From Ignavibacteria bacterium (GTDB lineage Bacteria > Bacteroidota > Ignavibacteria > Ignavibacteriales > Ignavibacteriaceae), in NCBI GenBank assembly GCA_021286645.1, contig JAJTBZ010000012.1, positions 1 to 44,354 of the forward strand: a stretch of 44,354 bases of DNA, in the 5' to 3' direction. Shown here piece by piece: positions 17,437-39,087 of this stretch. Numbering within the stretch: position 1 is the stretch's first letter; every line of letters begins with the position of its first letter. A program made the translations under genes and the position numbers. The notes beneath the pieces were generated by a model. That model was not told the DNA's origin and ran no database searches. It saw only the letters and a program-made list of their open reading frames with translations.

Positions 17437-19026
17437 ATGCAAAAGAATAAATACCGTTGGTTTGTTCTGGGAGACATCAATGGTTTTTTTGGTTTAATGT
17501 TCGATAATTTAACGGTTCTCTCATACCTGGCAGGAATTCTGGTCTTTGGATTCGGTTACCCCGCAGATATTGTATTTACAAAAATGTTTCCCGGCACGGC
17601 TCTGGGAGTACTTTTTGGAGATGTGGTTTATACAATAATGGCGTTCAGATTGGCAAAAAAAACAGGTAATCCGAACGTAACCGCCATGCCGCTTGGCTTA
17701 GATACACCTTCAACAATTGGTATTGCACTTACAGTACTTGGTCCGGCATTCTTATACCTTAAGGGCAAGGGAATGAATGTTCAGGACGCGGCTATGATGA
17801 CCTGGTACATCGGCATGGCAACTATGGTTCTAATTGGAGTTATTAAACTAATATTTTCATTTATTGGTCAATGGGTACAGAAAATCGTTCCTCAGGCAGG
17901 TTTATTAGGCAGCCTTGCAGGAATTGGTCTGGCGCTTATTGGTATTATGCCTCTGATAGATATATTTGGGCTTCCTGTTGTTGGCATGATCGCACTTGGA
18001 CTAATCCTGTATAATCTCGTAGCCGGTTTGCGCCTGCCAAAAAATTTCCCGGGAATTTTAGCAGCCGTTGCACTAGGCACTATAATTTATTATATCTGCG
18101 CGCCATTAGGCTGGTTCGGCACTACATATGCAGCTCCATCGGGGGCATTTCATGTAGGAATACCCATGCCAACTCTGGGATTTGTAAATGGATTTACCGA
18201 AGCATTACGGTATTTGCCTATCGCTTTCCCCTTCGCATTACTCACCATAGTCGGCGGTATTAATGTAACTGAAAGTGCCCGGGTTGCCGGAGACGATTAT
18301 AACACGAGGAGTATTCTCTTAACCGAAGCATTATCTACACTGGTAGCAGGATTATTTGGCGGGGTAGCACAAACCACCCCGTATATTGGTCAGCCAGCGT
18401 ATAAAGCAATGGGTAGTAGAGCGGGTTATACACTTCTAACCGGTATTTTTGTCGGATTGGGAGGCATACTTGGTTATGTATCGTTTATTGTTGAATTAAT
18501 TCCCCGAGCGGTTTTGGCGCCAATTCTTGTATTTGTTGCATTGGATATAATGGTTCAGGCTTTTAAAGCATGCCCGGAAAAACATACACCGGCAGTTGCT
18601 TTTGCCTATTTCCCTACGGTAGCCCGCATGCTACAAATTAAACTTAGCAACCCCGAGTTGGTTCCTATTGCATTATTTAATAAAATGCTTACTCTGCCCG
18701 GTAAAACCTTATCGGATTTATTGGTAATTGTGGCCTTAGGTAATGGCTTCATCCTCACGGCAATGTTGTGGGGAGGCTTTGTAGCAACCCTCATTGATAA
18801 AAAACTGCGGCAGTCTTCGGTTTATCTTCTCTTATTAGCCGGTTTAACATTCTTCGGGCTAATCCACTCGGCTTACCCGGAAGGCAGTATGTACCTGCCG
18901 TGGACACTCCCCGGCAATTTGCAGGTAGTTCCATATCAATTTGCAACTGCCTACCTGATTTTGGCGGCCATGATGTTCTTTTTCTCATTTATAAAACAAG
19001 ACGAGACTGCACAGATAATTCATTAA
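17437..19026 (+). CDS. NCS2-like (xanthine/uracil-type) permease
   Basis: A 529-residue polytopic transporter with about 12-14 hydrophobic segments. The beginning (GDINGFFGLMFDNLTVLSYLAG), the LPKNFPGILAAVALG segment near 200, the NVTESARVAGDDYNTRSILLTEALSTLVAGLFGGVAQTTPY region near 275-310 (the family's substrate-proximal Q/N/T-rich motif, compare the NxxE and QTTP patterns) and the C-terminal hydrophobic repeats fit the nucleobase:cation symporter-2 / AzgA superfamily. Members import xanthine, uracil, hypoxanthine or guanine with H+ or Na+; the exact substrate is not clear, and this subgroup has diverged from characterised UraA/XanQ. No purine riboswitch is evident upstream. It has its own upstream gap and a hairpin after it, so it appears to be monocistronic. 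Confidence 0.75.
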   Translation: MQKNKYRWFVLGDINGFFGLMFDNLTVLSYLAGILVFGFGYPADIVFTKMFPGTALGVLFGDVVYTIMAFRLAKKTGNPNVTAMPLGLDTPSTIGIALTVLGPAFLYLKGKGMNVQDAAMMTWYIGMATMVLIGVIKLIFSFIGQWVQKIVPQAGLLGSLAGIGLALIGIMPLIDIFGLPVVGMIALGLILYNLVAGLRLPKNFPGILAAVALGTIIYYICAPLGWFGTTYAAPSGAFHVGIPMPTLGFVNGFTEALRYLPIAFPFALLTIVGGINVTESARVAGDDYNTRSILLTEALSTLVAGLFGGVAQTTPYIGQPAYKAMGSRAGYTLLTGIFVGLGGILGYVSFIVELIPRAVLAPILVFVALDIMVQAFKACPEKHTPAVAFAYFPTVARMLQIKLSNPELVPIALFNKMLTLPGKTLSDLLVIVALGNGFILTAMLWGGFVATLIDKKLRQSSVYLLLLAGLTFFGLIHSAYPEGSMYLPWTLPGNLQVVPYQFATAYLILAAMMFFFSFIKQDETAQIIH

Positions 19027-19190: not shown

Positions 19191-22100
19191 ATGCTACGGA
19201 CACAACAACAAGTTCTGACCAATGAAGAACTCGACGAAAAATTAAAAGATGCATTTGATCACCTTACAGAAGGTCGATATAGAATCGCTCTGACGAATGC
19301 ACAAAAAGTTTTCGAATTCCGTCCGAATGATTTCAGGGTTGCCATTTGCCTAGCATGGGCTTATCTGGAAAATAATGAACCGGACCTGGCTCTTGAATAC
19401 GCAGATTTAGCTGTTAAACTGGGCAAAGAGATGCCAACAACTAAGCTTTATCGGGGCTTTATCCTTATGCGAATGGGAATTTTCGATGGCGCCATTGCAG
19501 ATTTGGATGTGGTTATTAAAACCAAAACTGAACCGCTTTCGTGGGCACACCATTTAAAAGCAAAAGCTCTTGCAGGCCAGGAAAAATATGCTGATGCATT
19601 GGAAGAATTTGAACTGGCGATCCGCGCTGACCGTGGTGCTACGAAAATTTTCCCCCGTTTACGTGAGTGGTACCGTAATGCCGCCGGGCAATCAGGCTCA
19701 TTTCTAACTAAGTTGGTCAATAAAAAAACGTATGTTGAAGAAGCCGAAGATGCTTATAAATCAAAAGAATATTGGTATTCTTTGTGGGCAATTAAACGAT
19801 CACTTCAGGAAGAAATAACTACCGAACAAAAAAACAGGATGCTAATCCTCGAGCTTGAATCGATGTACGCGTTGTTTCAACTTAAACCAGCCTTGGAAAA
19901 AGCCAAAAAGGTTTATGAATCGCTTAAGGATGACCAGCGTTTTCAGCAAATTTATAACAAACTACAAAATACCGAGAAAAAAAACCGGCAGGAATCTGCA
20001 CCTAAACAGGGCTCCCTTCTAAATATTCTTGGTGAAGATATTCCTGCAATTGAAGAAACCACTTCAAGTCATTTCAAGAAAACAAGTATAAACCTTGGTC
20101 AACTTGAATCGCCTAAAAGCACCAAACACTCTATGTACCAGAGCCTCGATGAGCAATTAGGCGAAGAAATACTTAAGCAGCCGGAAAAACCTGTTCAACA
20201 GGATAAAAAAGTAATAATACTCACAAAGAGAACTGATTTTCAACGATTTGATAATACCTGGGGTATCGGGTATTTTGCCCGCACTTTTGATGTTAACGAA
20301 GAGATCAGGGGTAACCAACGGGAATATTACCTTCAATTTGCGGAAGGACTTACCGGCTACATAGGAATTGAAGCTATTATCTCCAATCCATACTACCAAC
20401 TAAAAGATGAGATGCTTTCCGGAACAGCAATCTGGAAAGTGAATGGAAATGAAGTTGGACGTAATGATTTTTCGGTTCAATCCGATAGTAATTGGAAACA
20501 GGTAATAATGGTGCAAAGTTGGGGCACCGAGCAACCCGGATTCTGGAAACGAGGACAGGGTTGCGTTGAAATTTACTTCAACAACCAGAAAATATGTGAA
20601 CGGTGGTTTCTCATTGGTCAGTCATCAATACCCAATACCGAGGAGATTGATATAGACCAACTTGAAAGTGAGCTTTCGAAGCGGCAGCCAGCTGCTACGT
20701 TACCGCAAAAATCAGTTGAGACGGTTCCCACGGCGGCATCATCAATTGATGAGCTCTTTAAGGAACTAAACGCATTTACCGGCCTGTCTTCGGTAAAACA
20801 GTCAATGCGTGAATTTGTCGATTATTTGCAATTTATTAAAGAACGACAAAAATTAGGATTAAAAACACAAGACACAATGTCGTTTAACTGTGTCTTTCAG
20901 GGCAACCCCGGAACAGGAAAAACTTCTGTGGCACGGGTGCTTGGCGGAATATTCAAATCCATGGGCATTCTTGAAAAGGGCCATCTTGTTGAAGTTGACA
21001 GAAGTTCGCTGGTTGGGCAATACATAGGTGAAACTGCACAGAAAACGGATAAAGTTATTGAAGAAGCCATGGGTGGACTCTTGTTTATCGATGAGGCATA
21101 TACCTTGGTAAAGAAAGGCGGCAGCGGCCAGGATTTCGGTCAGGAAGCTATTGATACACTACTGAAACGTATGGAAGATAAGGCCGGCCAATTTGCAATT
21201 ATTGTTGCCGGTTACCCAAATGAAATGGAAGATTTTCTGTCTTCAAACCCCGGAATGAAATCGCGCTTTAATCACTTCTTTACTTTTGAAGATTATAACC
21301 CTGATGAACTGATATCAATCTTTAAAGGAATTGCAGCAAAAGAAGATTTTAGCATTGAAACCCCGGCAACAGATCTGTTATTAAAAGAATTTACATCTAT
21401 TTACCGTAAAAGAGACAAGACATTCGGTAACGCGCGCTTTGTTCGCAACTTATTCAATGATGCGAAAATGAAACTGAGTAAGCGCTATCTAAAGCTACCC
21501 GAGAGCATGCGTGATAAGCAGGCGCTAACCACGTTTACTGCAGAAGATTTTAGTGAACTGTTTGTTCAAAGCCGGGGCGATTCTTATAAAGTTGGTGTTG
21601 ATCGTGAAAGCTTAAATAGAGCCCTTGAAGAATTAAATAGCCTTACCGGGCTTCATTCGGTTAAAAAAGATATCGATCAAATGGTGAAGTTGGTGAATTA
21701 TTATATCGATATGGGCGAAAATATCGAGAACAAATTTACCGATCACATTTTATTTCTGGGGAATCCCGGAACCGGAAAAACAACCGTGGCCCGCCTTGTA
21801 AGCCAAATCTTTGCGGCCCTTGGCATTATTCCCAAAGGCCATCTGGTTGAAGCTGACAGGCAATTGCTTGTAGCACCATTTGTTGGTAAAACAGCAGAAA
21901 AGACGACGGAATTAGTTAATACCTCAATGGGCGGAACCTTGTTTATCGATGAAGCATACACATTGGTAAAACAGGGTGATTCCAGCGATTTTGGCAAAGA
22001 AGCAATCGATACACTTCTGAAACGCATGGAAGACGACCGTGGTAAATTTATCGTAATAGCTGCCGGTTATACAGAAGAGATGCAAAAGTTTATTGAAAGC

Positions 22101-23273
22101 AATCCCGGGCTCCAGTCCCGCTTTACAAAAACATTCATGTTCGAAGATTATGCTCCCGATGAAATGATTGCAATTACAAAAGTTGTGCTGCGTAAGAAAA
22201 AAATGCAACTGGATACTGAAGCCGAAGATGCGCTGCGGAAATATTACATGGAATTATACAGGAATCGGGATAAAAATTTTGGTAATGCCCGTCTGGTTCG
22301 CAATGTTTGCGAATCTGCTGTCCGTAACCATATGCTTCGAATGGTTGACATTCCGAAAGATGAACGGACCGATGATCACACGAAATTTTTACGTCTGCCA
22401 GACTTACAGGAAATTGTTAATGTACAGACTGAAAAGAAAATTATCCATATTGAGGGCGACAAAGAAAAACTTGATCTGCTACTCAAAGAACTCAATGAAT
22501 TAACCGGACTTGATTCGGTTAAGAAGTCAGTGGATAAACTGATTTCAGGATTAAAAGTAGCGAAAATCCGCGAAGCACGCGGACTAAAGGTAATAAAAAA
22601 GAATCTTCATAGCGTATTTCTCGGGAACCCCGGTACGGGCAAAACTACTGTGGCCCGCCTGCTAAGTCGAATTTACAAAGAAATGGGCCTGTTGGAAAAA
22701 GGTCACCTGGTAGAGGTGGACCGCTCCGCTCTGGTCGCGGGCTATCAGGGGCAAACTGCGGTTAAGACAGATGAAGTTATTGCTAAAGCGCTGGGCGGCA
22801 CCCTATTTATTGACGAAGCGTACACACTTACACGTGGAGGAGATGCTTTTGGCCAGGAAGCTATTGATACAATTCTTAAGCGTATGGAAGATTACAAGGA
22901 TGAATTAGTAATAATAGTTGCCGGGTACCCTGAAGAGATGCAAACATTTTTAGACGCGAATCCCGGGATGCAGTCACGCTTCACAAATTTCTTCATGTTC
23001 GAAGATTACACACCAAGACAGATGCTTGAAATCGCCACGATGATTGGCGAGAAAAATGGTTATCATCTCGATGAGGGTGCTTTACAAATGTTGCTGGATA
23101 AATTCACACGCTTATATGCTAGTCGGGATGCCAATTTCGGTAATGCACGTACAGTGCGTAATTTATTGTATAAAGCAATAAGTAATCAGGAAGAAAGGAT
23201 TTTAACAGTGTTAAATCCGACTGACGAAGACTTAACGATGATAACTTTTGAAGATGTTCAGGCTGCCGATTAG
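19191..23273 (+). CDS. TPR protein with three tandem CbxX/CfqX-type AAA+ ATPase modules
   Basis: A 1360-residue cytoplasmic protein. Residues about 10-240 form TPR-like helices (for example GRYRIALTNAQKVFEFRPNDF). Residues about 340-477 are a beta-rich domain of unknown family ending KICERWFLIGQ. Three AAA+ modules follow, beginning near 517, 807 and 1093, each opening with an ELNxxTGLxSVK sequence. Walker A GNPGTGKT starts at 571, 857 and 1145; each module keeps Walker B FIDEAYTL, sensor 1 (AGYxxEM), an SRF arginine-finger region and a sensor-2 GNARxVRN. The pore loops differ: GQYIGET, APFVGKT, AGYQGQT. Close relatives of one module are CbbX, SpoVK and EccA of type VII secretion, which also pairs TPR with one CbxX domain. 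A substrate-remodelling ATPase is inferred; the target is unknown. The hybrid kinase follows 56 bp on. Confidence 0.9.
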   Translation: MLRTQQQVLTNEELDEKLKDAFDHLTEGRYRIALTNAQKVFEFRPNDFRVAICLAWAYLENNEPDLALEYADLAVKLGKEMPTTKLYRGFILMRMGIFDGAIADLDVVIKTKTEPLSWAHHLKAKALAGQEKYADALEEFELAIRADRGATKIFPRLREWYRNAAGQSGSFLTKLVNKKTYVEEAEDAYKSKEYWYSLWAIKRSLQEEITTEQKNRMLILELESMYALFQLKPALEKAKKVYESLKDDQRFQQIYNKLQNTEKKNRQESAPKQGSLLNILGEDIPAIEETTSSHFKKTSINLGQLESPKSTKHSMYQSLDEQLGEEILKQPEKPVQQDKKVIILTKRTDFQRFDNTWGIGYFARTFDVNEEIRGNQREYYLQFAEGLTGYIGIEAIISNPYYQLKDEMLSGTAIWKVNGNEVGRNDFSVQSDSNWKQVIMVQSWGTEQPGFWKRGQGCVEIYFNNQKICERWFLIGQSSIPNTEEIDIDQLESELSKRQPAATLPQKSVETVPTAASSIDELFKELNAFTGLSSVKQSMREFVDYLQFIKERQKLGLKTQDTMSFNCVFQGNPGTGKTSVARVLGGIFKSMGILEKGHLVEVDRSSLVGQYIGETAQKTDKVIEEAMGGLLFIDEAYTLVKKGGSGQDFGQEAIDTLLKRMEDKAGQFAIIVAGYPNEMEDFLSSNPGMKSRFNHFFTFEDYNPDELISIFKGIAAKEDFSIETPATDLLLKEFTSIYRKRDKTFGNARFVRNLFNDAKMKLSKRYLKLPESMRDKQALTTFTAEDFSELFVQSRGDSYKVGVDRESLNRALEELNSLTGLHSVKKDIDQMVKLVNYYIDMGENIENKFTDHILFLGNPGTGKTTVARLVSQIFAALGIIPKGHLVEADRQLLVAPFVGKTAEKTTELVNTSMGGTLFIDEAYTLVKQGDSSDFGKEAIDTLLKRMEDDRGKFIVIAAGYTEEMQKFIESNPGLQSRFTKTFMFEDYAPDEMIAITKVVLRKKKMQLDTEAEDALRKYYMELYRNRDKNFGNARLVRNVCESAVRNHMLRMVDIPKDERTDDHTKFLRLPDLQEIVNVQTEKKIIHIEGDKEKLDLLLKELNELTGLDSVKKSVDKLISGLKVAKIREARGLKVIKKNLHSVFLGNPGTGKTTVARLLSRIYKEMGLLEKGHLVEVDRSALVAGYQGQTAVKTDEVIAKALGGTLFIDEAYTLTRGGDAFGQEAIDTILKRMEDYKDELVIIVAGYPEEMQTFLDANPGMQSRFTNFFMFEDYTPRQMLEIATMIGEKNGYHLDEGALQMLLDKFTRLYASRDANFGNARTVRNLLYKAISNQEERILTVLNPTDEDLTMITFEDVQAAD
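20739..23270 (+). repeat. Three-fold internal repeat of about 860 bp encoding AAA+ modules
   Basis: The three AAA+ modules recur every 286-288 codons (Walker A starts at residues 571, 857 and 1145). Nucleotide similarity is still visible around Walker B (for example near 21081, 21939 and 22800) and around the DTLLKRMED segment, consistent with tandem duplication followed by divergence of the pore loops. Confidence 0.8.
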
Positions 23274-23329: not shown

Positions 23330-26300
23330 ATGAGCGGTTCGTTATCCGGGTTTTTGTTAGATTTTATCGATGATCCTGTAATTCTGGTAGATCAGACCGG
23401 ACTGGTACAACAGATCAATAGGGCAGCAGAAATTCGTACCGGCTTTAACCAGGAAGATATACAGGGCTTCCCTTTTTCAATTCTTCACTCCCCTACTGAG
23501 ACACAATTGGCAAAATCATATTTCGAGCAGATACTCGAGGGTACCAGAACCGGTTATATGATGAAGCTGGTACGTAATGATAATAATTCAGAGTTCACCG
23601 CCTTTCACACCTCTGTTGTTAAGGAGGATGATAAATCCACAGTAATTATTCGGATCGGCGAACCGGCAGATACACCGATTATTACCGAGAATAAAAATTT
23701 TTCTTCCTATGATCTGCTTCAGCAAGGAGCTACAATAGTATTTATTCTGAACTACGAAAAGGAAATGCGCGTAGAATATGTTAGTGATAATGTATCCGAA
23801 TATCTTGGTTTCTCAGTTCAGGAGTTTATCACGGGTAATTTACGCTTTAGAGATTTAATCCGACAGGAAGATTTACCACGCTACGACCATGAAACATTAA
23901 AATTTATTGGAAATAATACTGTTCGATTTCACCGCAAACCGTACAGAGTACGAACGAGTGATAACAAGTGGATTTGGGTTTCCGATAATTCGGTAATGCA
24001 TCATAACAAAGAAGGGCAGGCTCTTCAGTTAATTTGCTATATTCATGATATTACTTCAGCGGTAACTCTTTCGGATGAATTACTCCGCAGGAATTCAGAA
24101 TATGAAATGATTTTTTATGCGCTGCCTGATCTCTATTTCCGTTTTTCTCGCGATGGTGTAATACTTGATTACCGTGCCGGGAAATTGAATGATCTATATC
24201 AAAGCCCCGATCTGTTTTTGAATAAGAAATTCACCGATATACTTCCGCCTGACGTAAGCGAAAAACTGGATGAAGCACGACTAAATGTTTTGATAACCGG
24301 AACTCCCGTAACTGCAGAATATTCATTACAGATGCCTACAGGTATCGAATATTATGAAGCACGGCTTGCTCCTCTCATGCACGATCAGCTAATATGTATT
24401 ATTCGAAATACTACCGAAGAAGTATTGGCAGCCCAGCAATACCAGGATGTAGTTGCTTTTAACAATTCGATGCTCGAAAACTTAACATTTGGAATTACTA
24501 TATACGAAATTGATTCAGGTAATTGTGTTTTCGCGAATGCAGCTGCGGCCACCATGTTAGGCGCTCCGGATGGAGCATTATTGCAACAAAATTTTAGAGA
24601 AATCCAATCATGGAAGGTATCCGGATTTATAGAGATTGTAAATCGTACAATAAAAACCGGGGAACCTGGCAGGGCCGAGTGTCGGTTATATTCCACCTTT
24701 GGCAGAATGGTTTGGATAGATTTTCAGGTGCAAATATTAAACAAAAATAATACCCCCCACCTGCTTACTTTTCTTATTGATATTACACAAAGAAAAATTC
24801 TGGCTGAATTACAAAACGCGCGCCTTAAGGTTTTAGAAGCCATTGGTGAAAATCCTTTAGAAGCGTCACTGGAAATTGTACTTAATGAATTAAGCAAACT
24901 GACAAGCAGTCATCATTGTTTTTATTACCAAATTCAGGAAGAACAAAATACTCCCACCCTCCGGGCTCACTCAGATCAACTCAAATTGTTATTGCATAAT
25001 TCAAAGGGGAAACGTCAACGTGAATGTATTATTCATGATGCCTTGATCAATGAATGCATCGAGAAAAAAGCCCCGTTTATTCTGGGACAGGGACACGAAC
25101 AACACGTATCAAATTATTTTAACGACACGGGTATTGAAATCACCAACGCGTTAATATTTCCTGTATTGGTTAACGATAACCTGCAAGGAATTCTTGGCGT
25201 ATGCAATAAAATAATTAACTATGATGTACCGGATTTACAAATAATCAGTTTTTTTTCTGATTTAGTAATAGAAGTAATCGAGCGGAAACATACACTGGAC
25301 GCTTTAAGAAAAAGTGAAGAACAAAACAGATCCATTATATCCGCTGTTGCCGGAGGAATTATTCTTCAGGATACTGCAGGCAATATTATAATGGCAAACA
25401 ATGCTGCCAGAGGCATACTGAGACTTATACCGCAAGGAACAACCGGTTATTTTATTTATCACGAAACCGTTTCATTTATTCACGAAGATGGTTCTAACTT
25501 TGAAGGTTCAGAGTACCCTGGAATGATGGCAATGGTCCAGTCAAAACCCATTCGTAACATAGTAATGGGTATCAGAATCCCTGATCGTCCACTTACCTGG
25601 ATATCTGCCAATGCCCAACCGGTTTTCGATGATAATTCAGGATTCCCCTCATCCGTAATAATTTCATTTAACGACATTACTGCAAGGAAACAACTTGAGA
25701 ATTCACTTATCGCAGCAAAAGAACGTGCCGAAGAGCTAAACCAAATTAAAACAAACTTCCTTGCAAACATGAGTCACGAGCTTCGCACGCCGCTCAACGG
25801 TATTTTAGGGTTCAGTGAAATCTTAACCGAACTAATCGATGATGCAGAACAGAAAAGGATGGCCGGGACAATAAGGCTTTCCGGGCAACGGCTGCTTTCA
25901 ACATTAAATCTGATTCTAAATCTTGCAAAGATAGAGGCTAATAAGCAGGAAATTCATTTGCGGAATATTAATATCGTGGAGTTCACTCGCGATTGCGTGC
26001 AGCTCTTTAACGGTATGGCACAGAATAAAGGATTATCCCTGGAGTTTCTTGCTACACAGGAAGAAATAATGATAACACTTGACCCGCAAATGCTCGATTC
26101 AATTATTAATAACCTTGTGAGCAATGGAATAAAATATACTGAAAAGGGAGGCGTTACCGTTACAATTTCACAAAAAGAAGGACAGGGATTACTCTGGGTA
26201 GTAATTGAAGTAAAAGATAGTGGTATTGGCATTCCCCCGGAACTACAAAGCATAGTTTTCGATCCATTCCGGCAAGTGAGTGAAGGCTATGACAGAACTT

Positions 26301-26854
26301 TCGAGGGAACCGGGTTAGGCCTAACGATAACCAAAAAATATGTAGAATTAATGAATGGCAGTATATCTGTTCAAAGCAACCCCGGTACCGGCAGCATATT
26401 TATAGTTACTTTTCCTCTGATGATAATTGAAAATGCATTTAACCACAAAGTTGAATCGGTTACTTCATCGCTGGCATTGGAGGATGTCAATATACCAGTA
26501 TTGCTTATAGATGACGATGAAGTAACATACGGAATCGCCCGACACATGTTGCAAAAGGTCACCGACCTCGCTTATGCCCGCTCCGGAGAGGAGGCTTTAC
26601 CATTATTAAAGGGTACTGATTATAAAGTGATTCTTCTGGATGTAAACTTAGGCAAAGGGAAAACAGGTATCGATTTTATTAAAGAAATCCGAAGGTTACC
26701 ACAATATACAAGCGTTCCCATAGTCGCCATTACCGCTTATGCTATGCAGGGAGACAGAAAGAAACTATTATCATCCGGCTATACTCATTATTTATCAAAA
26801 CCTTTTTTCAAAGATGATATCCTGAATTTGTTTCGTGATATTCTTCACCTTTAA
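23330..26854 (+). CDS. Soluble multi-PAS/GAF hybrid histidine kinase with receiver domain
   Basis: A 1174-residue sensor with no transmembrane segment. In order: PAS (about 8-115), PAS (about 125-245), PAS (about 255-365), PAS (about 375-495), GAF (about 497-650), PAS (about 663-785), HisKA with phosphoacceptor His816 in NMSHELRTPLNG, HATPase_c (about 905-1035; IINNLVSNGIKYTEKGG, DSGIGIPPEL, GTGLGLTI) and a receiver domain (about 1054-1172) with IDDDE and phosphoacceptor Asp1104 in LLDVNLG, then the AITAY and SKPFF motifs. It likely senses cytosolic ligands or redox state; the signal is unknown. No DNA-binding output domain or separate response regulator is nearby. GGAGAGGG (23320-23327) serves as ribosome-binding site. 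It starts 56 bp after the triple-AAA+ gene, on the same strand, so co-transcription is plausible. Confidence 0.95.
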   Translation: MSGSLSGFLLDFIDDPVILVDQTGLVQQINRAAEIRTGFNQEDIQGFPFSILHSPTETQLAKSYFEQILEGTRTGYMMKLVRNDNNSEFTAFHTSVVKEDDKSTVIIRIGEPADTPIITENKNFSSYDLLQQGATIVFILNYEKEMRVEYVSDNVSEYLGFSVQEFITGNLRFRDLIRQEDLPRYDHETLKFIGNNTVRFHRKPYRVRTSDNKWIWVSDNSVMHHNKEGQALQLICYIHDITSAVTLSDELLRRNSEYEMIFYALPDLYFRFSRDGVILDYRAGKLNDLYQSPDLFLNKKFTDILPPDVSEKLDEARLNVLITGTPVTAEYSLQMPTGIEYYEARLAPLMHDQLICIIRNTTEEVLAAQQYQDVVAFNNSMLENLTFGITIYEIDSGNCVFANAAAATMLGAPDGALLQQNFREIQSWKVSGFIEIVNRTIKTGEPGRAECRLYSTFGRMVWIDFQVQILNKNNTPHLLTFLIDITQRKILAELQNARLKVLEAIGENPLEASLEIVLNELSKLTSSHHCFYYQIQEEQNTPTLRAHSDQLKLLLHNSKGKRQRECIIHDALINECIEKKAPFILGQGHEQHVSNYFNDTGIEITNALIFPVLVNDNLQGILGVCNKIINYDVPDLQIISFFSDLVIEVIERKHTLDALRKSEEQNRSIISAVAGGIILQDTAGNIIMANNAARGILRLIPQGTTGYFIYHETVSFIHEDGSNFEGSEYPGMMAMVQSKPIRNIVMGIRIPDRPLTWISANAQPVFDDNSGFPSSVIISFNDITARKQLENSLIAAKERAEELNQIKTNFLANMSHELRTPLNGILGFSEILTELIDDAEQKRMAGTIRLSGQRLLSTLNLILNLAKIEANKQEIHLRNINIVEFTRDCVQLFNGMAQNKGLSLEFLATQEEIMITLDPQMLDSIINNLVSNGIKYTEKGGVTVTISQKEGQGLLWVVIEVKDSGIGIPPELQSIVFDPFRQVSEGYDRTFEGTGLGLTITKKYVELMNGSISVQSNPGTGSIFIVTFPLMIIENAFNHKVESVTSSLALEDVNIPVLLIDDDEVTYGIARHMLQKVTDLAYARSGEEALPLLKGTDYKVILLDVNLGKGKTGIDFIKEIRRLPQYTSVPIVAITAYAMQGDRKKLLSSGYTHYLSKPFFKDDILNLFRDILHL

Positions 26855-35362: not shown

Positions 35363-37078
35363 CTAGCTTTTCCTGCTATGGAAGTGAGTATGCAGAACTT
35401 CATGGCTAACATGGCTGCCAGGTTCAACAAAATACTCCTTATACAGGGTTTTAATTGATTCGTTCTCATATGAACGACGTTTTACCATCTTTTTGTCGAT
35501 TTCGTAGAGCGCGCGCATACGTTGAACGACTTTATCGGTCTTCTGGTGAATTGGCTGCCCACCGCCGTTAATACAGCCGCCCGGACAAGCCATTACTTCG
35601 ATAAAATGATATTTGGAATTTCCACTCCGAAGATCATCGAGAATCTGGCGAATATTGCCAATGCCATTAACAACAGCAACATTTACATCCAATTCACCAA
35701 TCTTAATAGTGGTTTCTTTTACTCCCTCGAGACCACGGATAGCGTTTAGCTCCATATTTTCCAGATGCTCACCGGTAAGAGTATGATAAGCATTACGAAG
35801 AGCAGCTTCCATTACGCCGCCTGAAGTACCAAAAATTGCCGCAGCACCGGTTGATTCGCCAAGCGGGTTATCAAATTCGCTGTCATTCAGATCAGCAAAG
35901 TCAATTCCGGCAACTTCAAAGAAGCGAACCAATTCACGGGTTGTCAATACTGCATCAACATCCTGTAATTTGTGCTCATTCAGTTCCGGACGAGAAGCTT
36001 CAAACTTCTTCACAGTACATGGCATTACCGAAACGACGAACACATCTTTCGGACTGATACCTAATTTTTTAGCATAGTATGTTTTTGCAATAGCACCTTC
36101 CATTTCATGGGGTGATTTACAAGAAGATACATATTGTAATAAATCAGGATAATTATGTTCAATGAACTTAACCCAACCCGGGCAGCAACTGGTGAACATT
36201 GGCAACGGTTCATTATTCGAAATTCGCTGAATAAGTTCATTTGCTTCTTCCCAAATGGTAAGATCGGCTGCAAAGTTGGTGTCAAATACTTTCTTAAAGC
36301 CTAGGCGGCGAAGACCGGTGACTAATTTACCGGTCACATCGGTACCCAAAGGTAAATTATATTCTTCGCCTAAAGTTGCCCGAACTGCAGGAGCGATCTG
36401 GGCAATAGTATATTTGTTTCTTGACTCGAGTGCAGAAGAAACTTCTTTCATGGCACTACGCTCGCGTAATGCGGCAGTAGGACATACTAAAATACACTGA
36501 CCGCACAAGATACAATCTGAAACGTTGATACCTTTGTTATAGGGTGTAGTAACGTTGCTCTGGAAACCTCTATTGGCGAAATCGATTGCACCAATCTTCT
36601 GAACTTCATTACATACGCGGACGCAACGACCACACAGAATACATTTTGCCGGATCGCGTTCCAATGAAGGGCTGGAAATATCAACGGCATGATCTTTTGT
36701 CTCACCGTGGAAACGATGTTCGCGAAGGCTGTAACGTTCTGCCAAATTTTGCAATTCGCAATTTTTATTGCGAACACATATCAGACAGTCCTGAGGGTGG
36801 TTTTCTACTAATAATTCAACTATTGTTTTACGGGCACGGCGTACACGAGCTGAATTGGTTTCAACAGTCATTCCTTCTGAAACCGGGTAGGCACATGCAG
36901 GAACAAGATTTCTAAAACCTTCAACTTCAACAGAACAAATACGGCATGCACCGCTGGGAATCAAATCCTTAATGTGGCAAAGAGTAGGTATGCTGATACC
37001 AACTGACTTTGCAGCATCAAGAATCGTCATATTATCTTCAGCTTTTACTTTAATCTTATTTATTGATAATTCTACCAT
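35363..37078 (-). CDS. hydA: [FeFe] hydrogenase catalytic subunit of a trimeric (HydABC-type) enzyme
   Basis: A 571-residue catalytic subunit. In order: N-terminal [2Fe-2S] domain (Cys34, 45, 48, 62), a His/Cys-rich cluster site (HPQDCLICVRNKNC near 94-107), two [4Fe-4S] motifs (CILCGRCVRVC and CILCGQCILVCP), then the H-cluster domain with L1 TSCCPGWV near 294, L2 MPCTVKK near 351 and L3 MACPGGC near 495, and the small C-terminal domain (YKEYFVEPGSH). This is the composition of the electron-bifurcating group A3 enzymes, which use NADH and reduced ferredoxin to make H2 or the reverse. It follows hydB by 23 bp (SD AAAAGG). Maturation genes hydEFG are not in the window. Group assignment is by domain layout and partners. 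Confidence 0.95.
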   Translation of the reverse strand: MVELSINKIKVKAEDNMTILDAAKSVGISIPTLCHIKDLIPSGACRICSVEVEGFRNLVPACAYPVSEGMTVETNSARVRRARKTIVELLVENHPQDCLICVRNKNCELQNLAERYSLREHRFHGETKDHAVDISSPSLERDPAKCILCGRCVRVCNEVQKIGAIDFANRGFQSNVTTPYNKGINVSDCILCGQCILVCPTAALRERSAMKEVSSALESRNKYTIAQIAPAVRATLGEEYNLPLGTDVTGKLVTGLRRLGFKKVFDTNFAADLTIWEEANELIQRISNNEPLPMFTSCCPGWVKFIEHNYPDLLQYVSSCKSPHEMEGAIAKTYYAKKLGISPKDVFVVSVMPCTVKKFEASRPELNEHKLQDVDAVLTTRELVRFFEVAGIDFADLNDSEFDNPLGESTGAAAIFGTSGGVMEAALRNAYHTLTGEHLENMELNAIRGLEGVKETTIKIGELDVNVAVVNGIGNIRQILDDLRSGNSKYHFIEVMACPGGCINGGGQPIHQKTDKVVQRMRALYEIDKKMVKRRSYENESIKTLYKEYFVEPGSHVSHEVLHTHFHSRKS

Positions 37079-37101
37079 TTTTGTTACCTTTTCATCAAAA
37101 A

Positions 37102-39087
37102 TTAATTGATATTGACAGCATCAAAACGGCAGGCTTCAAAGCACAATCCGCATTTCACGCACTTGTCTTCTATTATATAATGAGCATGTCCCTTTTCACC
37201 AAGAATGGCTTCGGAGGAGCACTTGCGCACGCATACACCGCAACCGGTGCATTTGCTGTTATCAACCGTATAGATGAGCAACTCTTTACAAACGCCTGAA
37301 GAGCATTTTCTTTCGTACAAATGTTCTTCATATTCATGACGGAAATACTGCAAACCGGAAAGTACCGGGTTCGGAGCTGACTGACCAAGACCGCACAAAG
37401 AAGTATCTTTAATTACACCGGCAAGTTTCTCCAATGCAATCATTCCTTTGAAACGCTGTAACTGGTCGGTTTTTTCTTTCGTAAAACGGTAACTGGTAGG
37501 TATCCGTTCAATTATTTCCAACATTCTCTTGGTACCTTCACGGCACGGAACGCACTTACCGCAAGATTCATTCTGAATGAAGGTAAGGAAGTATTTCGCG
37601 ATATCAACCATACAGGTTTCTTCGTCCATAACAACGAATCCGCCCGAACCCATCATCGCGCCTACTTCTTTTAATGATTCATAATCTACTTTTGTATTAA
37701 TTACGCTTTCAGGTAAACAACCGCCCGAGGGGCCGCCAATCTGAACAGCTTTAAATTTCTTTCCATTGGGGATACCACCACCGATTTCAAAAACTACTTC
37801 ACCAAGGCTTATGCCCATAGGAACTTCTACTAAACCGGTGTTGCGGATCTTTCCGCTAAGCGCGAAAACTTTTGTTCCCTTGCTCTTTTCGGTTCCGATT
37901 TTATTGAACCAGTCAGCACCTTTACCAATGATCTCGGCTACGTTTCCAAAAGTTTCAACATTGTTGATAACAGTTGGTTTTCCCCACAAACCTGCAATCG
38001 ACGGGAATGGAGGACGTGGACGCGGCATTCCGCGTTTGCCTTCGATAGATGCAATAAGAGCAGTTTCTTCACCGCAAACAAACGCACCGGCGCCTTTTTT
38101 AATCTTTAAGTGGAAACTGAAATCGCTGCCGAGAATATTATCACCCAGGAAACCATATTCTTTACACTGGGCAATTGTTTTCTCAAGACGTTCAATTGCC
38201 AGGGGGTATTCCGCACGGCAATAAATATAACCATCGGTAGCGCCAATAGCATAACCGCCTATTAACATACCTTCAATTAAACGGAAAGGATCACTTTCAA
38301 GAACCGAACGATCCATGAATGCACCCGGATCACCTTCATCGGCATTACAGATAATATATTTCTGTACTGATTTTTGTTTGAAAGCCAATTCCCATTTTTT
38401 TCCGGTCGGGAAACCTGCACCACCACGGCCACGTAAACCGGAAAGATTAACTTCCGCGATTACATCTTCGGGTTTCATTAAACGGAGTACCTTATCAAAA
38501 GCCCTAAATCCGCCATTGGCCAGATAAGCATCAAGAGAAACAGGATTAATAATACCGCAATTTTGCAGCACTATTTTCATTTGATGACGGAAAAATGGAT
38601 CGTTATGAATTAACTGAATATCTTTGGAATGCGGGGCATGTGCACCTAAAAGTTTTTCAGTGAAGACATCTTTTTCAACGATGGTCTTTTGAATAAATTT
38701 AGAAACAATCTTAGGAGTGATTTCACAATAGGAAACGCGGGCTTCACCAGGCAGTTTAATATCAACAATTACTTCCTTAGCGCAGTACCCGACACAGCCG
38801 GTAGCTTCAATAACGGCTTCAATGTTTAGTTTATGCAATTCTGCACGGATTGCATCTTCAACTTTCTGAGCACCAGCTGCCAAACCGCATGTACCCATAC
38901 CAACAAAGATAATGGGCAATTCATGCTCTTCATAGCGCAGCTTTCTGTTTAATTGCTGAATTTTTTCGGCGCAGTTTTTATCATGATGGCAAAGGGGACC
39001 TTCGGATTTACAGCGAACAAATAAATCACACGGTTTGGTATTAGAGTGCCAACATTCATCACAACATTTATCGATTAAACGGTTCAT
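37102..39087 (-). CDS. hydB: NuoF-like subunit of the bifurcating hydrogenase, HydB
   Basis: A 661-residue subunit carrying FMN and several clusters. In order: an N-terminal Cys-rich stretch (Cys8, 9, 12, 20, 26, 33, 39), a thioredoxin-like [2Fe-2S] domain (about 50-150), the NuoF core with FMN-binding GLRGRGGAGFPTGKKW near 217-232 and NADH-binding GAGAFVCGEETAL, a [4Fe-4S] motif SCGKCVPCREG near 522, and two C-terminal ferredoxin motifs (CTGCGVCVRKC and CVKCGLCFEAC). It is the NAD(H)-binding and bifurcation site in characterised HydABC. A GAGGAGGT ribosome-binding site (39091-39098) lies inside the hydC end; the two genes overlap by 4 bp. The first 40 residues are longer than in many HydB proteins. 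Confidence 0.95.
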   Translation of the reverse strand: MNRLIDKCCDECWHSNTKPCDLFVRCKSEGPLCHHDKNCAEKIQQLNRKLRYEEHELPIIFVGMGTCGLAAGAQKVEDAIRAELHKLNIEAVIEATGCVGYCAKEVIVDIKLPGEARVSYCEITPKIVSKFIQKTIVEKDVFTEKLLGAHAPHSKDIQLIHNDPFFRHQMKIVLQNCGIINPVSLDAYLANGGFRAFDKVLRLMKPEDVIAEVNLSGLRGRGGAGFPTGKKWELAFKQKSVQKYIICNADEGDPGAFMDRSVLESDPFRLIEGMLIGGYAIGATDGYIYCRAEYPLAIERLEKTIAQCKEYGFLGDNILGSDFSFHLKIKKGAGAFVCGEETALIASIEGKRGMPRPRPPFPSIAGLWGKPTVINNVETFGNVAEIIGKGADWFNKIGTEKSKGTKVFALSGKIRNTGLVEVPMGISLGEVVFEIGGGIPNGKKFKAVQIGGPSGGCLPESVINTKVDYESLKEVGAMMGSGGFVVMDEETCMVDIAKYFLTFIQNESCGKCVPCREGTKRMLEIIERIPTSYRFTKEKTDQLQRFKGMIALEKLAGVIKDTSLCGLGQSAPNPVLSGLQYFRHEYEEHLYERKCSSGVCKELLIYTVDNSKCTGCGVCVRKCSSEAILGEKGHAHYIIEDKCVKCGLCFEACRFDAVNIN

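Follow-up and report, generated by a model that had tools for sequence, protein, structure and literature searches.

What kind of machine is made by a protein that carries three CbxX-type AAA+ modules in a single chain, behind a tetratricopeptide repeat (TPR) region and a beta-rich domain? The question is raised by a 1360-aa protein encoded on contig JAJTBZ010000012.1 of an Ignavibacteria bacterium (GenBank assembly GCA_021286645.1), of which positions 1 to 44,354 (44,354 nucleotides, here called the window) were analysed. The reading that we prefer, with a probability of roughly 55%, is that the protein is a dedicated, non-proteolytic remodelling ATPase of the SpoVK-CbbX-EccA clade, in which the three modules (M1, M2 and M3) would form three stacked homotypic rings and the N-terminal half would recruit the client. 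The parts of the gene are as follows.

19191..23273, + strand: whole gene, an open-reading frame of 1360 aa in the order TPR, beta sandwich, AAA+ M1, M2, M3
19191..19985, + strand: TPR region, residues 1-265 (Pfam TPR_2 1.1e-7, TPR_16 3.5e-6)
19986..20195, + strand: variable linker, residues 266-335 (0-38% identity, largely gaps, no conservation)
20238..20621, + strand: predicted immunoglobulin-like (Ig-like) beta-sandwich domain, residues about 350-477 (AlphaFold2 fold, no sequence-library match)
20733..21575, + strand: AAA+ module M1, residues 515-795, CbbX-like, pore loop GQYIGET at 21015-21035
20901..20924, + strand: M1 Walker A, GNPGTGKT, residues 571-578
21606..22415, + strand: AAA+ module M2, residues 806-1075, pore loop APFVGKT at 21873-21893
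21759..21782, + strand: M2 Walker A, residues 857-864
22470..23270, + strand: AAA+ module M3, residues 1094-1360, pore loop AGYQGQT at 22737-22757
22623..22646, + strand: M3 Walker A, residues 1145-1152

Clade membership and family

The GNPGTGKT motif starts at residues 571, 857 and 1145, a spacing of 286 and 288, and Pfam returns AAA three times (whole-protein E 1.3e-50), AAA_lid_6 three times (3.7e-47) and TPR, in agreement with an earlier note on this DNA, written from the sequence alone, which had described three complete AAA+ modules at 286-288 residue spacing. That note had every catalytic motif kept, and M1, M2 and M3 do each carry the Walker A lysine, the Walker B DE, the GY of sensor 1, the finger arginine (SRF) and the sensor-2 arginine (GNAR); the three pore loops differ by module and read as it had quoted them. 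All three are true CbxX-clade modules and none is degenerate here, rather than only one of them being truly AAA+.

The studied members of the SpoVK-CbbX-EccA clade are dedicated chaperones with narrow targets and varied N-terminal recruitment domains, and the clade is recognised by a GY signature at sensor 1 and a second arginine finger at sensor 2 (PMC10659427). The GY is present in M1, M2 and M3 and the second finger is found as GNAR in all three, whilst the N of SNPG/ANPG is also present, six positions ahead of the SRF arginine, where PMC10659427 gives four. We added the AAA_lid_6 lid as a criterion of our own; the protein has three PF17866 matches above the cut-off, and amongst 14 control genomes this family was found in B. 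subtilis only. On these sequence features we judge the 1360-aa protein to be a variant of the dedicated chaperone clade, and one not previously studied. It is the sole protein with a CbxX-type lid detected in its genome (a 3.72 Mb draft, 99% complete).

By structure the modules match CbbX best (Z 27.7), and by sequence CbbX and EccA1; amongst the PDB matches M1 is closer to CbbX than to EccA1, and M3 is equal to both. A module-wise hidden Markov model search, as the earlier note had proposed, found every module to be CbxX-type and each to lie below the NCBIfam cut-offs for SpoVK (top model for every module, 258-286 bits each vs. a cut-off of 423), EccA (an equivalog, 228-252 bits per module, cut-off 466.65) and CbbX (208-222 bits per module vs. 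459). The three-module sum for EccA is 692 bits, and NCBIfam would call the protein SpoVK, EccA and CbbX together, because the cut-offs are reached by module sums. Tandem proteins are in this way open to an annotation trap, all three cut-offs being exceeded solely by summing three modules, and automatic annotation would mislabel the family ‘stage V sporulation protein K’. In the genome of the window there was no match to RuBisCO_large or SpoIVA, and no WXG100 gene was present in this draft, in which other type VII secretion genes were not searched for. A role as a defence system was set aside, the PADLOC matches (IetA, TRIP13) being weak general AAA matches.

The earlier note had called for a survey of the whole architecture across genomes. 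Of 59 relatives from its own family and order (Ignavibacteriales), 51 gave a match to the TPR and beta half, and three modules were present in 73 of the 85 distinct proteins collected, mostly 1260-1410 aa long; because the same architecture recurs in 73 distinct proteins, chance is excluded. The TPR region shows 36-62% conservation across most main-group relatives. Variants included proteins in which M2 is deleted (L199 and L077) and one of 764 aa (L117) which is without the TPR and has a dead second module. Named records of the group belong to the Ignavibacteria/Ignavibacteriales and every one is metagenome-assembled; spread beyond the phylum was assessed in plasmids, phages and viral contigs, and in one contig scan, the patterns of which extend to close relatives only. 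The family is conserved and unnamed, and in this order of environmental bacteria it is near-universal amongst the members sampled.

Module classes and ring arrangement

The pore-loop differences are kept amongst relatives: the loop is [YF][IV]G in M1, mostly [YF]VG in M2 and mostly YQG in M3, and in live modules the pore residues are Y/F then I/V in M1, mostly Y/F (H in 10) then V in M2, and Y then mostly Q in M3. A tree of 69 modules, the root of which is unsure (the references CbbX and EccA1 are on long branches), split M1, M2 and M3 nearly perfectly, with one to two label changes each vs. 16 in shuffles. Judged by this tree, the modules fall into three orthologous classes, M1, M2 and M3, each distinct from the others. 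Two-module proteins elsewhere in the phylum consist of one M1-class and one M2-class module (support for the M2-class placement 82), therefore the M1 and M2 classes may be older than M3, or M3 may have been lost in the two-module proteins.

The way in which modules decay bears on how they are arranged. We compared 72 proteins with three readable modules and counted a module as dead if it had no Walker A lysine or no Walker B D/E. There were 23 dead modules, 22 of which had also lost their own arginine finger, and this finger was kept in 193 of 193 live modules. The finger of the next module was lost in 3 of 23 dead-module cases and that of the previous module likewise in 3 of 23, all accounted for by proteins with two dead modules. 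Walker loss was associated with loss of the module's own finger (Fisher p 3e-29) but not with that of the next or previous module (p 0.71), these p-values being computed on rows which are not independent and ignoring the relatedness of the proteins. M3 alone was dead in 15 proteins, M2 and M3 together in three, M2 alone in one and M1 alone in one, and the M1 and M2 sites were intact in 15 of 15 M3-only-dead proteins. M3 is the module inactivated most often amongst relatives (a tree minimum of at least 6 changes, vs. 2 for M2) and M1 is the motor lost most rarely, being dead in one protein and keeping its full catalysis motifs in 71 of 72.

In a side-by-side ring M2 or M1 would depend on the M3 finger for a complete site, so losing that finger should relax the site; neighbouring sites are unrelaxed after M3 decay, and a homotypic ring for each module is thereby favoured, if indirectly. 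The decay pattern accordingly favours one ring per module, in stacked tiers, over a side-by-side pseudo-ring, and of the two arrangements that the earlier note had put forward it is the stack of three tiers which is preferred, whilst the pseudo-trimer is disfavoured by the neighbour-site argument.

Several points weigh against stacking. Decay of an entire module would remove Walker residues and finger together however the modules were arranged, and because of this the argument rests on the intact neighbouring sites; independent loss events are few, and well-supported branches supplied only four pairs for a formal test by independent pairs. Monomer structure prediction, which the earlier note had suggested, folded the modules of M1-M3 (predicted local distance difference test, pLDDT, about 85), but gave no relative placement of them (predicted template modelling score, pTM, 0.39; linker pLDDT under 50). 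Two-module alignments of this model to p97-type chains, although long, had a root-mean-square deviation of about 14-20 Å and were discarded as a sign of stacking.

The beta domain, neighbouring genes and paralogues

Residues 332-492 of the window copy, which span the 340-477 that the earlier note had proposed to search alone, have no Pfam or NCBIfam match, and their best PDB sequence match is no better than E 0.28. AlphaFold2, run on 41 sequences, predicts an all-beta sandwich (pLDDT 92, pTM 0.84), for which the fold search gave a xylosyltransferase C-terminal domain (Z 9.8), the Wzt sugar-binding domain (8.8) and UNC119/RhoGDI (E about 1e-4). These are generic Ig-like sandwiches only, and no function was taken from them. 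As modelled, the domain is an undescribed, newly recognised Ig-like sandwich; the suggestion that it picks the client was upheld in so far as it is a separate part, and probably a client-selecting one. A profile search found it as tandem pairs elsewhere in the phylum, in the following proteins (signal peptides, where given, were called by eye):

L112, L113, L114, L193, L194, L195: beta-beta-AAA-AAA, about 870-900 aa
L115: beta-beta-AAA, 598 aa
L110, L111, L197 (278 aa) and L109 (661 aa): beta-domain proteins without AAA, apparently carrying a signal peptide

The 278-aa protein at L111:8526-9362 consists of an apparent signal peptide and two beta-domain copies only, as do those of L110 and L197. 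The domain was not found in plasmids (beta-beta query), or in phages or viral contigs (single-beta query). A domain absent from Pfam recurs both with CbxX-class AAA+ modules and in apparently secreted proteins.

A survey of conserved neighbours, also suggested by the earlier note, yielded three leads: a transporter pair, GroESL and a SiaABC-type operon of a paralogue. Of the 69 loci in which the two following genes could be read, 27 have, directly downstream and in the same orientation, an ATP-binding cassette (ABC) ATPase of about 239 aa and a permease (PF16949) of about 563 aa, the gap from the three-module gene to the ABC gene being mostly -4 to 57 bp. By our count the permease is linked to the three-module gene in 22 of 29 genomes holding both. 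Two observations count against this transporter as the client: the permease is found in 29 of 51 genomes with the three-module gene and in 5 of 8 without, i.e. with no correlation, and it is absent from the genome of the window, whilst a sister species has it right behind the gene. Because of these the exporter is a lead and no proven partner, an obligate partnership being ruled out by co-occurrence. GroEL is at most two genes upstream (GroESL) in 22 of 75 loci, seven of which have both GroEL and the ABC pair; in the genome of the window GroESL is on a separate contig, which does not carry the three-module gene. In the window the place of the sister species' ABC pair is taken by a hybrid histidine kinase (23330-26854; PAS, GAF and receiver domains), 56 bp downstream, a family not seen beside the three-module gene at the other loci examined.

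In L042, L074, L075, L076 and L116 the genes for SiaC (PF09345) and an 85-aa protein immediately precede a divergent paralogue, with a gap of 2-3 bp to the paralogue ATPase gene. Most of the SiaC-linked loci have, upstream, a REC-SpoIIE phosphatase gene and a DUF6272-type gene, which may encode a SiaB-type kinase; L077 has SiaC only. Pfam was run on locus members from L042, L074 and L116, and the 85-aa protein, conserved beside SiaC, has no Pfam match. Two such loci are:

L116:6893-11871: SiaC-linked paralogue locus
L074:8269-13246: SiaC-linked paralogue locus

In Pseudomonas, SiaA, SiaB and SiaC form a partner switch of phosphatase, kinase and target (PMC7647112). By gene content, the SiaC-linked loci look like such a switch, with an AAA+ output replacing SiaD. 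A four-module relative, a 1113-aa zinc-ribbon protein with four CbxX modules, the first degenerate (L209:8794-12135, - strand), clusters with genes for a Ser/Thr kinase, an FHA/zinc-ribbon protein and PP2C.

Elsewhere in the window, 17437-19026 encodes a membrane protein of 529 aa, permease-like and by eye of the NCS2 kind, with no Pfam or NCBIfam match, and 35363-39087 a Group A6 FeFe hydrogenase with a NuoF-like subunit, probably an NADH-dependent hydrogenase.

Proposed working, rival readings and known systems

As a stacked remodeller, the protein would be a hexamer of three tiers, the six M1 modules making one ring, the six M2 modules a second and the six M3 modules a third; at the M1 end, the TPR and Ig-like domains would bind either the client itself or an adaptor for it. 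Driven by ATP hydrolysis, the pore loops with their aromatic residues (Y/F-hydrophobic-G in M1 and M2, YQG in M3) would move and pull a client segment, presumably by threading, towards activation, assembly or extraction and not degradation; M3 would be an auxiliary motor that has been switched off several times. Our leading guess for the client is an envelope or membrane component, for example the ABC exporter encoded downstream in many relatives. A fuller version, which we hold tentatively and would not bet on, has a three-tier homohexamer of 18 CbxX modules, whose tiers would share out the work in a conserved way, with a new Ig-like client-binding domain and a sister subfamily acting as the output of a SiaABC-type phospho-switch; if true, this would place a protein-remodelling motor under partner-switching control.

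Other readings of the protein share much of this evidence. The modules of one chain could lie adjacent, two chains making a six-module or dynein-like split ring in which fingers complete the sites of neighbours; module numbers of 1, 2 and 3 in relatives all divide six, the divergence of M1, M2 and M3 into fixed classes is dynein-like, and the M1-M3 model fixes no module geometry, yet intact M1 and M2 sites in every M3-only-dead protein and the lack of association between Walker loss and neighbouring fingers make such a ring unlikely. Retention of degenerate modules in place, together with the SiaC-linked paralogues (with the 85-aa protein and the upstream phosphatase and DUF6272 genes) and the kinase-FHA-PP2C cluster of the four-module relative, would suit a switch or scaffold regulated by signals, in which it is the binding of ATP that matters rather than threading, with the N-terminal half receiving the input and the AAA tiers serving as a large platform for assembly under phospho-signalling control. 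We consider this quite improbable: the main group, window included, is without such partner genes, most live modules keep aromatic pore residues, and M1 keeps its catalysis motifs almost throughout.

The earlier note had inferred an EccA-like remodeller, and a secretion-linked chaperone whose TPR binds substrates and readies them for export would be in keeping with the TPR-CbxX order, the likeness of M3 (AGYQGQTAVKT) to EccA1 (AEYEGQSAVKT) and the exporter genes downstream in many relatives. However, the genome of the window has neither a WXG100 gene nor the linked permease, the TPR profile recovers only designed TPR proteins from the PDB at E<=1e-6, EccA not being amongst them, and every module is far under the EccA cut-off, which is reached only by summing. 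This idea is not supported and we regard it as very improbable.

A client is known for few proteins of the CbbX/SpoVK/EccA clade, and those studied are dedicated chaperones. The three-module family offers natural module knock-outs, in which M1, M2 or M3 is dead or deleted, that make the roles of each tier in a tandem AAA+ machine directly testable. Amongst known systems, CbbX, the red-type Rubisco activase (PDB 3syk/3syl/3zuh), shares the AAA+ module and lid, and its VGQYIG pore loop is identical to that of M1, but it is a single module without TPR or beta domain. EccA/EccA1 of type VII secretion (PDB 9lur) likewise has an N-terminal TPR and then a CbxX module, with a pore segment resembling that of M3, but has one module and a different beta part, and no specific relation to its TPR showed at the above threshold. 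SpoVK, the sporulation chaperone of MurG (PMC10659427), belongs to the same AAA+ clade. Two-tier machines of the p97/Cdc48, NSF and ClpB type also carry tandem AAA+ modules in one chain, where a weak or inactive tier is possible; they have two modules and are of another clade, whereas the 1360-aa protein has three of the CbxX class, for which we infer the stacked geometry from sequence. The side-by-side rings of dynein and midasin likewise have chains with several AAA+ modules that differ from one another, some of them inactive, and shared interfaces are expected there, whereas in the 1360-aa family intact neighbours tolerate the loss of the finger in one module.

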